Part shown: one piece after another, positions 1 through 6,325 of the stretch
How the letters are laid out: each line of letters begins with the position of its first letter
How positions within the stretch are numbered: the stretch's first letter is position 1
Assembly: GCA_022564935.1 (NCBI GenBank)
Contig: JADFKM010000080.1
Span: 1 to 6,325, forward strand
Length of the DNA stretch: 6,325 nt
Reading direction: 5' to 3'
From: Candidatus Dadabacteria bacterium
Lineage (GTDB): Bacteria; Desulfobacterota_D; UBA1144; Nemesobacterales; JADFKM01
Notes under the pieces: generated by a model
The model's input: the letters and a program-made list of their open reading frames with translations, nothing else
What the model was told of the DNA's origin: nothing
Databases searched by the model: none
Position numbers and translations under genes: made by a program

Positions 1-143
1 AGTATATTAAACCCACGGACCTGGACAAAAAGGGAGCATCTCGTTCTTTTATTCTTGGGATGAGAGGAGCCGCACACATCGCACCCGCAGCCCACTATGG
101 GCACCCCCGTAGATGTCGCGCAGCCAAGCACTATCACTCTCAT
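1..143 (-). CDS. PhnP-like metallo-beta-lactamase-fold hydrolase, N-terminal fragment
   Basis: Reading leftward from the ATG at 143-141, the frame stays open for 47 codons and leaves the window. The start of the protein, [20 protein letters not shown], followed by CDVC, matches the N-terminus of the PhnP/RomA-like branch of the metallo-beta-lactamase fold: a first beta strand, a G-C/T-x-x-S-x-G-V-P turn, then Cys19, Cys21 and Cys24. In E. coli PhnP the equivalent three cysteines bind a structural zinc. The following R-T-R-C-S-L-F-V segment fits the next strand. The HxHxDH catalytic motif would lie beyond the edge and cannot be checked. Family members hydrolyse cyclic phosphodiesters or related esters; the substrate here is unknown. 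An in-frame TAG four codons upstream excludes a longer start. There is no good Shine-Dalgarno sequence, but a -10-like box lies six bases upstream. The gene follows htrA on the same strand after 74 bases. Family call fairly sure; function not. Confidence 0.82.
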
Positions 144-217: not shown

Positions 218-1708
218 CTAATCAATTTTGACGGCCACATATATCGAGTTCCTTTCCCTTTGAATGAGGAAGAGATTTGACCCTTTCTTTTTCAAATCTC
301 CAACCTCACTTTTATATTCGCTTAAATCCGTAATCGGCTTCTTATTAATCTCCAAAATGACGTCCCCCTGTCTGAGTCCAGCTTCTTTGGCCGCGCTCCC
401 TGCGGCCACCTTGGTAACCAAAACTCCGGAGTCGGCCTTCAGTTTGTAAAGCGAAGCAAGCTTAGGGGTAACCTCTTTTACCGTGAGACCCAATCTTTTT
501 TCTCCGTCAATTTCTGATTTTACCTGTTTTACCGAGCCTTTTTCCTTAAACTCCCCCAGAGTAACAGACACTTCCTTTAGCTCACCATCTCTAATAACAC
601 TAAGGGTCATAACCGAGCCGGGGGGCGTGCCGGCAGCCAGCAGGGTTAGATCGGTTAACCTGTCTATCTTCTTGCCGTCCACGCTCATTATTACGTCTCC
701 CCTCTCAATGCCCGCTCTAGCGGCCGGGCCGCCCGTAGTAACATCGGAAACCAGGATTCCTTCATCCACATCCAGTCCGAGACCCTCGGCAAGCTCGGGC
801 GTAACCTCCTGGACCAAGACCCCGAGCCACCCCCTCACTACCTTGCCCGAGGCTCTGAGCTGATCTATTATGGTTTTTGCAATATCCGAAGGGATGGCAA
901 AACCTATGCCCTGCCCCCTCGCAACTATAGCGGTATTGACCCCTACGACTTCGCCCATCAGGTTAAACAACGGCCCCCCGCTGTTGCCCGGATTGATAGG
1001 GGCGTCAGTCTGAATAAAATCGTCGTAGCGTCCCATACCCAGCACCCTGCCTGTGGCGCTCACTATTCCCGCTGTGACAGTGTGGCCGAGACCGAAGGGA
1101 TTGCCGATCGCCACAACCCAATCCCCTATCTCAAGCGACTCGGAATCTCCGAAGCTGAGAAAGGGAAGCTCGCCATCCACATCGATCTTTAATAGAGCAA
1201 GATCGGTATTAGGGTCTTTTCCCACTACACTCGCTACGTATTTCCTCTCGTTCTCCAAGATAACGTGGATATCGGTAGCCTTATCCACCACGTGGTTGTT
1301 AGTGACGACATAACCGCCGGGGGATATGATAAACCCGGTTCCAAGCCCCCTGCGATTATATTCTTGCTGAGGCGCTTGACCAAAAAACTTTTCAAAGAAA
1401 TCACTGAATGGGTCGTCCCCGCCAAAGGGCTGAGGCATGGGGAACAACGGCTTCCTTTTAATAACGCTCGAAGTGCTTATATTAACCACCGCGGGCTTGA
1501 GATTCTTAACAAGTGGGGAAAATGATGGGAGCTCGACCCTTTTGAACACCTGTGTATGGGACGTATCTTTCTGATTACCGGCATTTTTTAGTGCAGTTTC
1601 TTCCCTGCCTACTTGACCCTGTGAGGCTTCTTCGGGCTTTTCACACCCGGGGAGCAAAACAGAAAAAGAGACGGCAATCAAAGCTGTAATAAATAAAACA
1701 TTTTTCAC
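218..1708 (-). CDS. Do/HtrA-family periplasmic serine protease, probable lipoprotein (DegP/DegQ-like)
   Basis: This 496-residue protein has the full DegP/DegQ plan: signal peptide, trypsin-like domain, then two PDZ domains. The start is GTG 1708-1706, with AAGGAGG six bases upstream; an in-frame TTG at 1801 would add 31 residues with no such site and would bury the signal peptide. Residues 1-22 form a signal peptide ending in LLPGC, a lipobox-like site that predicts lipidation on Cys22. The catalytic triad is His139 (TNNHVV), Asp169 (NTDLAL) and Ser243 (GNSGGP). A family-typical PFxDFFxKFF loop sits at 100-109. PDZ1 spans about 292-386 and PDZ2 about 406-494. Do proteases act as oligomers in the periplasm, degrading or chaperoning misfolded envelope proteins; the PDZ domains bind exposed C-termini. 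Length is normal and no key residue is missing. It is transcribed divergently from the amidase gene and toward the PhnP-like gene. Whether it is a DegP, DegQ or DegS orthologue cannot be decided; two PDZ domains argue against DegS. Confidence 0.96.
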   Translation of the reverse strand: MKNVLFITALIAVSFSVLLPGCEKPEEASQGQVGREETALKNAGNQKDTSHTQVFKRVELPSFSPLVKNLKPAVVNISTSSVIKRKPLFPMPQPFGGDDPFSDFFEKFFGQAPQQEYNRRGLGTGFIISPGGYVVTNNHVVDKATDIHVILENERKYVASVVGKDPNTDLALLKIDVDGELPFLSFGDSESLEIGDWVVAIGNPFGLGHTVTAGIVSATGRVLGMGRYDDFIQTDAPINPGNSGGPLFNLMGEVVGVNTAIVARGQGIGFAIPSDIAKTIIDQLRASGKVVRGWLGVLVQEVTPELAEGLGLDVDEGILVSDVTTGGPAARAGIERGDVIMSVDGKKIDRLTDLTLLAAGTPPGSVMTLSVIRDGELKEVSVTLGEFKEKGSVKQVKSEIDGEKRLGLTVKEVTPKLASLYKLKADSGVLVTKVAAGSAAKEAGLRQGDVILEINKKPITDLSEYKSEVGDLKKKGSNLFLIQRERNSIYVAVKID

Positions 1709-1714
1709 AATAAG

Positions 1715-1721
1715 CCTCCTT
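1715..1721 (-). promoter_or_regulatory. Strong Shine-Dalgarno site that sets the htrA start
   Basis: The minus strand reads AAGGAGG, then six bases (CTTATT), then GTG at 1708. This is a near-perfect anti-16S match at good spacing. It overrides the longer reading from the TTG at 1801 and places a basic residue and hydrophobic stretch directly at the N-terminus, as a signal peptide requires. It also shows that this organism uses canonical Shine-Dalgarno initiation at some genes. Confidence 0.85.
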
Positions 1722-1983
1722 ACAATTGCCAGAACCATGTTGCGATTTTGCAGTGGATAACGGAAACACTCTATATTTTGAAACGGCAAGCCGTCCAGCA
1801 ATTTGAGCTATAAAATAATAAACCCGAACTCAGGGATTTGGTTACAATATAAAAATATACCATAAGCAACGCTGAGATTTTATACAACCTCTGGATAATA
1901 AAGCACCGCGTATCAGCATTTTTCAATGTACCCGTACTTGCCTACCCCCGTAAATGGGAATTATGACTCAAAACCGCAGGGAA

Positions 1984-2017: not shown

Positions 2018-3778
2018 ATGTACATTAACAATTATTTCGTATATATTAGGAATAACGTGGTATTAATGAGATTAGCTTTATCGACCATATTGCTTTTTCT
2101 ATCCCTATCTACCGATATTTCTAACGCATCCGATAGGGGGGGCAATCAACTATTCCAACAAGCCCTGGAGCTATACCAAACCCTCTCTTCAGATCCCGAT
2201 AACATGAACGACAAGGAGGTCTGGATTACAATAGCCAAGGCCTTTAACAGCATATACATAGAATATCCACAGAGCGAAAAAGCCCCGGACGCCCTTTTTC
2301 TTTCCGGCAAGATGTACGAGGAGGCAGGACTCAGATTCGATTCTAAAGACCATCTCGAGAAGTCCGTTAAACTCAGCCGTGAATTTACCGAAAACTATCC
2401 CCAAAGCCCGCTCGCCGACGACGCGCAGATAAGAATTGCCAGGATCATCGAACTCACAGACAAACAAAAAGCCTATACCGAATATCACCAGGTCATTAAG
2501 AGTTACCCTAACGGCAATATGTTTAATGCGGCAAGCTCTAAGCTCCGAGACCTCAGACCACATAAGCCTGCCGTAAAAGTTACGACAAATGAGTACAATA
2601 CAAAATCGAAAAAATCCTCTTCAAGCGGCCTGGTCAGCGTATCCAAAATTCGCAGGTGGTCTACAGAGGACTATACGCGCGTGGTCATCCATGTAGATAA
2701 AGAAATGCCGTTCAAACACTATTTTCTCAAAGCCGATAAAAAACGCGGCACTCCGCCCAGACTGTTCGTAGATATAAAGGGAACGACCGTCGACACCCAT
2801 CTTGAAGAATCCATTGACAGCGGACTGCTTGAGTCTATTAAATTCGCCAGGCACTCAAAAGACACCGTGCGGGTCGTCCTCTATATACGCAGCTTCAAAG
2901 ACTACCGCGTATTCGAGCTACACAACCCCTTCAGAATCGTCATGGATATATACGACAAGGAGTCTTCGCCTGCGAACATTAACGTCGCCGCAGCTCCGAA
3001 AAAACCCCCTTCTCCCAAGGCGGATATTTCAAAGAATATAAAACTCGAAACGCCCTCTCAAGATATAGCCGACTGGCTCGGATTGAAAGTGAACACGGTC
3101 GTAATCGACCCGGGACACGGCGGTCACGACCCTGGAGCCATCGGCCCGGGCGGCGTCAAGGAGAAGGACGTAAACCTCAAAATAGCCAAGGCGCTAAAAA
3201 AGAAGATCGAAAAGGACGGCACCATCCCGAAAGTCATTCTCACAAGAACAGACGACAGGTTCATCCCGCTGGAAGAAAGAACCGCCATTGCGAGAAAGCT
3301 TAACGCCGACCTGTTCATCTCGATCCACTGCAACGCATCGAAGCGCAGGAAAGCACACGGCATCGAAACCTATATCCTGAGTTTTACCAAAGACCCCGAG
3401 GCCTTGGAAGTGGCGGCCAGAGAGAATGCAAGCAACACAAGGGGTCTTAGCGACCTGGCCGACATAATAAAGAAGTACGTTCTCAACTCGAAGATAGATC
3501 AATCGATGAGTCTTGCAAAATCCGTTCAAAATTCCATCGTCACCACCCTCGACGGCAAATACTCATATATCAACAACAAGGGCGTCAAGAAAGCCCCCTT
3601 CGTTGTTCTTATCGGAACGGACGTTCCCAGCATATTGATCGAAGCATCGTTCATTTCAAACCCCAGGGAAGAAAAAAGATTGAAAAGCAAAAAGTATATA
3701 AACACCCTGGCCGAGGGAATCTTGGCCGGTCTGAAAAAATACTCCAAGAACAAGCAGATCGCCTACATATCTAAATGA
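2018..3778 (+). CDS. N-acetylmuramoyl-L-alanine amidase with TPR, AMIN and Amidase_3 domains (AmiC-like)
   Basis: This 586-residue enzyme cleaves the amide bond between N-acetylmuramic acid and L-alanine in peptidoglycan, typically to split the septum. Residues 17-37 form a signal peptide (MRLALSTILLFLSLS, likely cut after SNA), so it acts in the periplasm. Residues about 40-180 are tetratricopeptide-like helices with repeated YPQS/YPNG turns, as in YbgF/BamD-type proteins. An AMIN domain (about 207-312) targets peptidoglycan or the septum. A low-complexity Pro/Lys linker leads to Amidase_3 (about 358-575). Zinc ligands are His367 (DPGHGG), Glu382 (KEKD) and His437 (SIHCNA); the catalytic glutamate is Glu542 (LIEASFISN). 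The stretch at about 466-500 matches the insertion that carries the occluding helix in AmiB/AmiC, so activation by an EnvC- or NlpD-type partner is plausible. The start is uncertain: ATG 2018 fits leaderless initiation, GTG 2057 has AGGA five bases upstream, and ATG 2066 gives the cleanest signal peptide. The core is the same in each case. Confidence 0.95.
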   Translation: MYINNYFVYIRNNVVLMRLALSTILLFLSLSTDISNASDRGGNQLFQQALELYQTLSSDPDNMNDKEVWITIAKAFNSIYIEYPQSEKAPDALFLSGKMYEEAGLRFDSKDHLEKSVKLSREFTENYPQSPLADDAQIRIARIIELTDKQKAYTEYHQVIKSYPNGNMFNAASSKLRDLRPHKPAVKVTTNEYNTKSKKSSSSGLVSVSKIRRWSTEDYTRVVIHVDKEMPFKHYFLKADKKRGTPPRLFVDIKGTTVDTHLEESIDSGLLESIKFARHSKDTVRVVLYIRSFKDYRVFELHNPFRIVMDIYDKESSPANINVAAAPKKPPSPKADISKNIKLETPSQDIADWLGLKVNTVVIDPGHGGHDPGAIGPGGVKEKDVNLKIAKALKKKIEKDGTIPKVILTRTDDRFIPLEERTAIARKLNADLFISIHCNASKRRKAHGIETYILSFTKDPEALEVAARENASNTRGLSDLADIIKKYVLNSKIDQSMSLAKSVQNSIVTTLDGKYSYINNKGVKKAPFVVLIGTDVPSILIEASFISNPREEKRLKSKKYINTLAEGILAGLKKYSKNKQIAYISK

Positions 3779-4069: not shown

Positions 4070-5790
4070 ATGAACAAAAACCGGGAGATCGCTCAGATCT
4101 TCGAAACAATCGCCGATATGCTCGAGGTTCTTGAAGAGAACAGGTTCAAGATAAGGGCCTACAGGAACGCCGCCCGAAACATAATGGAGCTTGGCGATAA
4201 GATCGAGGAGGTGGAGGGGCGCGGTGAGCTGCAAAGCATTTCCGGCGTGGGAGCCGACTTGTCCAGAAAAATCTCCGGATATTTAGAAACCGGAAAGATC
4301 GAGGAGTATGAGAGACTCAAGGAGCGGGTTCCTCCCGGAGCGGTCGAGCTGCTTTCAATTCAGGGTCTGGGCCCAAAGACCCTCGCGACGCTGATAAAAA
4401 AGCTCGGGGTAAGGGGGTTGTCCGATCTCGAAAAAGTCCTGGATGGAGAAGAAATTAAGAAGCTGCCAAGGATGGGACAAAAGAAAATAGAGGAAATGAG
4501 AAGGGGGATACAAATTGTCAAAGAGGGTGGAGAGAGAATCCCGCTGGGCGCCGCATTGCCTACGGCCCTTGAAATCACCTCCCTCGTAAGGGAGATGCCG
4601 GGCACCCTGGACGCTGTAATCACAGGCTCTATAAGGAGAATGAAAGAAAACAATAAGGACATAGACATACTCGCCCTGACCCGAGACGGCGGCTCAGTCA
4701 TTAAGGCGTTCGTCGAGCTTCCGATAGTGCGGGAAGTGCATGCGCAGGGCGAAACGACTGGAAGCATAATCACAGGAGAAGGGGTTAAGGTCAATCTTAG
4801 AGTCGCAGGCCCCGACTCTTGGGGAGGAGCGCTACAGTATTTCACAGGCTCGCAGGCCCATAACGTGAAGCTTAGAATATTAGCGCTCAGCAAAGGCTGC
4901 AACCTCAATGAGTACGGGGTGTTCCGAGGCGAGAATAGAATTGCCTGGAAATCCGAGGAAGAGTTCTACGAAGCATTGGGACTCGAGTGGATCCCCCCTG
5001 AGCTGAGGGAAGACAGAGGGGAGATAGAGGCCGCAGCCAAGGGCGAGATACCCGATCTTATACAACTTGCCGATATCAGGGGAGATCTCCACACCCATTC
5101 CACCTGGAGCGACGGAAGGTACGGTATCGAGCAGATGGCCGCCGCTGCCAGGGATATGGGCTATGAGTACATCGCCGTCACAGACCACTCCCCTTCCTCG
5201 CGCATTGCCAACGGGCTGAGCACCGAAAGGCTTATGGAGAAAAAAAAGGACATACAAAGGGCAAGAAAAAGAGTCACCGGCATTTCCATACTTTTTGGAG
5301 CGGAGGTAGACATAAAAAGCGACGGCAGCCTGGATTATCCCGACGACGTACTTAAGGAGCTGGATGTAGTAATAGCGGCCGTCCACAGCGGATTCAATAT
5401 GGAGCGGGCAGCTATGACTGCGCGCATTACGGCCGCCTTGAAAAACCCCTGTGTGCACGCTCTCGCCCACCCCACCGGAAGACTCATTGGAACCAGAGCG
5501 CCTTATGAGATGGACATAGACGAAGTCATCGATACGGCGCTCAAACACGGCAAAGCGCTCGAGGTCAACTCCCAGTATCTGAGACTCGACCTTAACGACA
5601 TCAACACAAAGCAGGCCGTGGATAAGGGCGTTAAGATAATTATCTCAACCGACGCCCACCATACCAATCAGCTGAAATTGATGGGCCTTGGAGTCGGCAC
5701 GGCAAGAAGGGGATGGTTACAAACAAAAAACGTGATCAACGCTTTGGGAATCAACGACCTTAAAAGATGGCTGAAAACCCCGGGGAAGCT

Positions 5791-5800
<10 letters not shown>
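4070..5800 (+). CDS. polX: DNA polymerase/3'-5' exonuclease PolX (Pol X plus PHP domains)
   Basis: This 576-residue protein matches bacterial PolX in length and order. Residues 1-50 form the Pol X N-terminal 8-kDa-type domain, starting canonically at M1, which supports ATG 4070. Helix-hairpin-helix segments lie at about 54-75, 94-124 and 129-147. The palm has the GSIRR motif (186-190) and two catalytic aspartates, Asp197 and Asp199; the thumb region has YFTGS (257-261), Asn265 and NEYGVF. The C-terminal PHP domain has a complete metal-ligand set: His341, His343, Asp348, His373, Glu412, His439, His467, Asp528 and His530. Family members fill short gaps in base excision repair; their PHP domain gives 3'-5' exonuclease, with AP-endonuclease and 3'-phosphatase activity reported for some. 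Three conserved palm positions look altered: Lys196 where GDxD has Gly, Thr230 in GETK, and Asn242 where VDLRV has the third catalytic Asp. Polymerase activity may be reduced or lost while the nuclease is kept; this is inference. ligA follows 60 bases downstream. Confidence 0.96.

Positions 5801-6325
<525 letters not shown>

Follow-up and report, generated by a model that had tools for sequence, protein, structure and literature searches.

The window analysed here, a whole contig of 6,325 nucleotides from a 1.99 Mb MAG of Candidatus Dadabacteria (88.6% complete), encodes a PolX in which Asn242 replaces the third catalytic aspartate of the palm and all nine metal ligands of the PHP nuclease domain are retained. 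The protein is probably an ortholog altered in place, in which the constraint on the palm has been relaxed, that is, a noncanonical PolX at an early stage that works as a PHP nuclease.

Identification and features of the polX gene

The product of the polX ORF gave matches to HHH_8, HHH_5, DNA_pol_B_thumb, and PHP that all exceeded the Pfam cut-offs, a match of 530 bits to the NCBIfam PolX equivalog, and an end-to-end alignment of 554 bits with the solved Thermus PolX (PDB 3au2). A single chain carries the 8 kDa, HhH, palm/fingers, and PHP domains and matches over its full length, so the protein is a prokaryotic PolX. The palm (100 residues) and fingers (63 residues) are equal in length to those of the canonical L008. 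The features of the window are summarized in Table 1.

Table 1. Features of the 6,325-nucleotide window.
Feature	Position	Strand	Basis
Initial part of an ORF truncated by the contig end, resembling a metallo-beta-lactamase-fold hydrolase	3-143	-	
DegP-like protease	218-1801	-	Pfam
AMIN/amidase_3 gene, conserved upstream neighbour	2018-3778	+	Pfam; gene order in relatives
polX ORF, 576 aa, full-length	4070-5800	+	Pfam HHH_8, HHH_5, DNA_pol_B_thumb, PHP; NCBIfam PolX equivalog
Palm domain, residues 153-252 (approximate boundaries)	4526-4825	+	Thermus PolX alignment; palm-specific changes
GSIRR motif, dNTP site, intact	4625-4639	+	Sequence alignment
Lys196 (AAG), ordinary variant of the Gly preceding the first Asp	4655-4657	+	Alignment
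Asp197 (GAC, 4658-4660) and Asp199 (GAC, 4664-4666), first and second catalytic Asp, kept	4658-4666	+	Alignment
Thr230 (ACT) replacing the conserved Lys of GxTK	4757-4759	+	Alignment
Asn242 (AAT) replacing the third catalytic Asp	4793-4795	+	Alignment
YFTGSQAHN, fingers/dNTP site, intact	4838-4864	+	Alignment
PHP nuclease domain, nine metal ligands all present (residues 341-530)	5078-5797	+	Pfam; alignment
NAD-dependent DNA ligase (LigA)-like ORF, N-terminal part, running off the contig	5861-6325	+	Named from sequence

Catalytic residues of the palm

VNLRV of the query aligned gap-free on VDLRV of the Thermus PolX, which places Asn242 at the third catalytic Asp. The placement is unambiguous because of the full-length identity to a solved PolX. 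D242 and K230 were present in 17/17 close canonical relatives, and neither N242 nor T230 was found in any other member of the order in the PolX alignment of the order. Among 104 PolX of other phyla, sampled via a whole-protein search, residue 242 was D in 85, Q in 7, E in 4, R in 4, and N in none, and residue 230 was K or R in 90. These results bear out the initial annotation, which had read Asn242 and Thr230 as replacements of the third aspartate and a conserved lysine and had reported Asp197, Asp199, and the nine PHP ligands as retained. The same annotation had counted Lys196 as a further lost residue, which proved incorrect: K or R occupied position 196 in 28/104 PolX of other phyla, as well as in numerous members of the order with an intact triad. 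Its suggestion of a lineage-wide variant is not supported for N242. In the sequences compared, Asn242 is peculiar to the query genome, and the loss of palm catalytic residues recurs in the order by other substitutions.

D197, D199, GSIRR, Y257, F258, G260, S261, and N265 are all intact in the query. Canonical, polymerase-competent PolX carries three acidic palm residues, whereas the query carries D197, D199, and N242 and so falls among the noncanonical PolX, which have at least one non-acidic triad position. Neither deletions in the palm or fingers nor substitutions in the dNTP site, both of which are frequent though not required in noncanonical PolX, were found in the query, where GSIRR and YFTGSQAHN are unchanged.

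PHP nuclease domain

The nine ligands HHDHEHHDH are located at residues 341, 343, 348, 373, 412, 439, 467, 528, and 530, and PHP retention is likewise a feature of noncanonical PolX. The nuclease of B. subtilis PolX requires Phe440, Arg469, Arg474, Asn498, and Arg503 (PMC6616362). The query counterparts, assigned by eye from a constant +2 offset and not by alignment of the B. subtilis sequence itself, are F442, R471, R476, N500, and R505, which are invariant across the order. Gln takes the place of His as the first PHP ligand in eight scattered proteins from several phyla (L003, L005, L093, L094, L099, L191, L193, and L214) and also in the Thermus PolX, in which VH replaces the usual pair.

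Palm-specific acceleration

We compared the query with its 17 close relatives in a conservation test built on whole-protein hits. Among the columns invariant in these relatives, 10 of 30 were changed in the query palm versus 10 of 152 elsewhere (Fisher p 2e-4). The ten palm changes are I176M, A185T, T194N, T202A, L224H, K230T, Q240K, D242N, V246A, and Y251W, several of which (e.g., A185T, T194N, Q240K, and V246A) go beyond those in the initial annotation. With the topology taken from the non-palm columns, the palm branch of the query was 0.94 versus a prediction of 0.42 based on its PHP branch (2dlnL 17.7), a test that is slightly optimistic because the other branch lengths were fixed. This was the largest palm acceleration among 31 rows, and the fingers and N-terminal branches of the query matched expectation. 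In a wider, unbiased set of columns, the palm excess of departures was only a trend (p 0.06). The first wide conservation test (4/17 in the palm versus 0/77 elsewhere) was dropped as evidence on N242 since its loci had been picked by DNA patterns; these patterns covered residues 238-246 and 313-320, so that D242, Q240, and V246 were conserved by the selection of loci.

The second most accelerated palm was that of L016 (2dlnL 14.4), the triad of which is intact. This acceleration is perhaps a relaxation ahead of the loss of catalytic residues, and it indicates that acceleration alone is no proof of a dead site.

Altered palms across the order

The query is the sole genome of its family among the genomes compared, and the genomes nearest to it are all from the same order. 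Counted from the relative G003, the phylum comprised 56 genomes besides the query, of which the order accounted for 42 and family f8 for 14. The query triad is DDN. Elsewhere in the order, palms were altered lineage-wide: the 13 members of genus g6 (L021-L033) had NDD or NSD, and the two families represented by L034-L036 had SDQ (f7) and EEV and EEF (f5). The PHP ligands HHDHEHHDH were kept in every altered-triad member, and the fingers motifs were also changed in g6, f7, and f5. We found no report of an altered-palm PolX in this lineage in the literature.

The best tree of the non-palm columns contained three palm-loss changes. Joining all of the altered rows as one clade cost 19.9 log units, which falls short of a firm rejection (p-AU 0.07); with the query set aside, the altered rows may be a single clade (p-AU 0.46). 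Canonical Dadabacteria had a terminal-branch palm/PHP ratio of 1.11 and canonical outgroups one of 0.93, compared with 2.49 in the query, 2.91 in g6, and 3.18 in f5/f7; listed in the same sequence, the fingers/PHP ratios were 1.11, 0.62, 1.37, 3.04, and 4.55. With its palm ratio raised but its fingers ratio near canonical, the query looks like an earlier stage, in which the palm would have relaxed and the fingers not yet.

The median genome size was 1.7 Mb for genomes with altered palms versus 2.5 Mb for the others, a correlation confounded by kinship. Genome streamlining is known in marine Dadabacteria (PMC8115339). In the streamlined family f8 (G043-G056, approximately 1 Mb), PolX was found in none of the 14 genomes and ligA in 13, and neither the amidase gene nor polX adjoined ligA in the flanks examined. 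Relatives contain separate proteins of approximately 300 residues (L037:124-1041, L038, and L039) with a PolX-like N-terminal HHH_8 and HHH_5, without palm or PHP domain, and with a C-terminal half without Pfam match.

Gene neighbourhood

The LigA-like ORF begins sixty bases downstream of polX. Within the order, the ligase was found next to polX at 31 loci and the amidase at 25, whether the palm was canonical or altered. These common flanks indicate that the palm was altered within the resident ortholog and that the gene was not replaced. The PolX neighbours given in the main text of a published survey are LigD, MutS2, and, in Methanomicrobia, an ATP-dependent ligase (PMC9226535). No Ku was found in the query genome, an absence that is uncertain at 88.6% completeness, or in 41/43 genomes of the order. 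A partnership of PolX in end joining was rejected on the lack of Ku in the query genome; end joining is not an evident partner of the query PolX.

DDQ PolX of a Chloroflexota order

The triad DDQ was found in 37/44 distinct PolX of one sampled Chloroflexota order (the DDQ PolX are L191, L193, L214, L216, L219, L220, L224, and most of L238-L285), with the other polymerase motifs and the PHP motifs kept. Over the 44 DDQ sequences gathered, Gln242 was accompanied by Trp244 (100%) and Ala258 (97%), and GSxRR, D197, D199, K230, and N265 were each at 100%. The palm/PHP ratio was 1.14 for DDQ versus 1.16 for DDD, which suggests that the DDQ palm is evidently maintained by selection. Since the constraint on this palm matches that on a normal palm, an amide at 242 alone is no proof of a dead palm. 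Five DDD proteins (L272, L273, L275, L278, and L279) with Arg244 and Phe258 nest inside the DDQ set in the non-palm tree, through reversal, domain exchange, or tree error. Positions 242, 244, and 258 appear to switch together, and the branches concerned are only moderately supported. The DDQ group is absent from the main texts of both PolX surveys (PMC9226535 and PMC12926913), the supplements of which may list it.

Discussion

The general phenomenon is already known. According to Prostova et al. (2022, PMC9226535), noncanonical PolX with an altered triad make up 27.5% of prokaryotic PolX, and two such enzymes from Deinococcus lacked polymerase activity and were strong Mn-dependent 3'-5' exonucleases. 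In a second survey (PMC12926913), conservation was likewise higher at the PHP site than at the polymerase site. The query resembles noncanonical PolX as described by Prostova et al. (D. radiodurans PolX, PDB 2w9m) in its full domain order, altered triad, intact PHP domain, and palm-specific change, but it has lost the third Asp only, without palm or fingers deletion, and its dNTP-site motifs are intact and its palm is far less degraded. In regards to the canonical Thermus PolX, the query shares the end-to-end alignment, the first two Asp, the dNTP site, and the PHP ligands, and it differs by a palm with Asn242 and Thr230. With the Chloroflexota DDQ PolX it shares an amide for the third Asp along with D197, D199, the dNTP site, and PHP, whereas the amide of that group is Gln, fixed with Trp244 and Ala258 in most of the order in a normally constrained palm.

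In Pol beta, the catalytic metal is bound by Asp256, which may also assist in deprotonating the primer (PMC10275647), and the substitution D256A, to Ala and not Asn, abolished polymerase activity (PMC3753620). Asn242 replaces the counterpart of this ligand of the catalytic metal, the proposed acceptor of the proton of the primer 3'-OH, and Thr230 and the neighbouring palm changes would add to its effect, so that gap filling is predicted to be strongly reduced or absent. The 8 kDa, HhH, and fingers domains would still bind gapped or 3'-damaged DNA, and the PHP domain would trim or clean 3' ends and perhaps cut AP sites. The ends would then be left for another polymerase to fill and for LigA to seal, a cooperation suggested by gene order only. 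We infer the loss of polymerase function and, from the palm-specific decay, the intact PHP domain, and the published noncanonical PolX, the role as a PHP nuclease. The claim of the initial annotation that the protein acts mainly as a nuclease is therefore the best-supported reading, with the activity itself deduced from sequence. Its claim that Asn should severely impair nucleotide transfer is weakened by the constrained Gln242 palm of Chloroflexota but not overturned. Several observations count against the preferred reading: D197, D199, and the dNTP-site residues are intact and the fingers evolve normally; the Chloroflexota palm is constrained with an amide, L016 is accelerated, and the wide set gave a trend of p 0.06; and Asn242 comes from one genome only, with the Pol beta evidence drawn from Ala rather than Asn.

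The intact dNTP-site motifs and fingers, and the palm/PHP ratio of the 44 Gln242 PolX, would also fit a palm that is altered yet working, in which the amide at 242, with D197 and D199 beside it, would still allow nucleotide transfer at a lower rate or with another metal dependence. We consider this unlikely, since the query lacks the companion Trp244 and Ala258, has lost the K230 that every DDQ sequence retains, and shows an accelerated rather than a constrained palm. It is also quite unlikely that an amide at the third ligand constitutes a second, still-used palm state, represented by Gln242/Trp244/Ala258 in Chloroflexota and newly entered by the query with Asn242, with altered chemistry such as metal need or substrate.

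Asp can change to Asn by one transition (GAT to AAT), and Asn242 is known from a single genome and a short contig; a base error, strain polymorphism, or minor allele in the MAG consensus of a species with canonical PolX is nevertheless very unlikely. Nine further substitutions at palm columns that do not vary among the relatives, together with the palm-specific lengthening of the branch, are beyond one error, and this excess and lengthening make a lone base error an unlikely source of Asn242. An ongoing loss of the entire gene would fit the absence of PolX from the streamlined sister family f8 and the smaller genomes among those with altered palms, but it is very unlikely: the polX ORF is intact, its PHP and N-terminal columns are not relaxed beyond the branch prediction, and the full set of PHP ligands persists in lineages whose palms have decayed much further.

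The query is an apparent early intermediate, in which the triad is broken and the palm is relaxing and the dNTP pocket and domain lengths are still canonical. Within the order, the palm of the same syntenic gene may be intact, partly decayed, or heavily decayed, and the nuclease is retained in every case. This graded decay makes it possible to test by what sequence of steps a polymerase loses its main activity. The comparison with Chloroflexota indicates that the label of altered triad mixes decaying and constrained palms and that the label alone is insufficient for loss of function.
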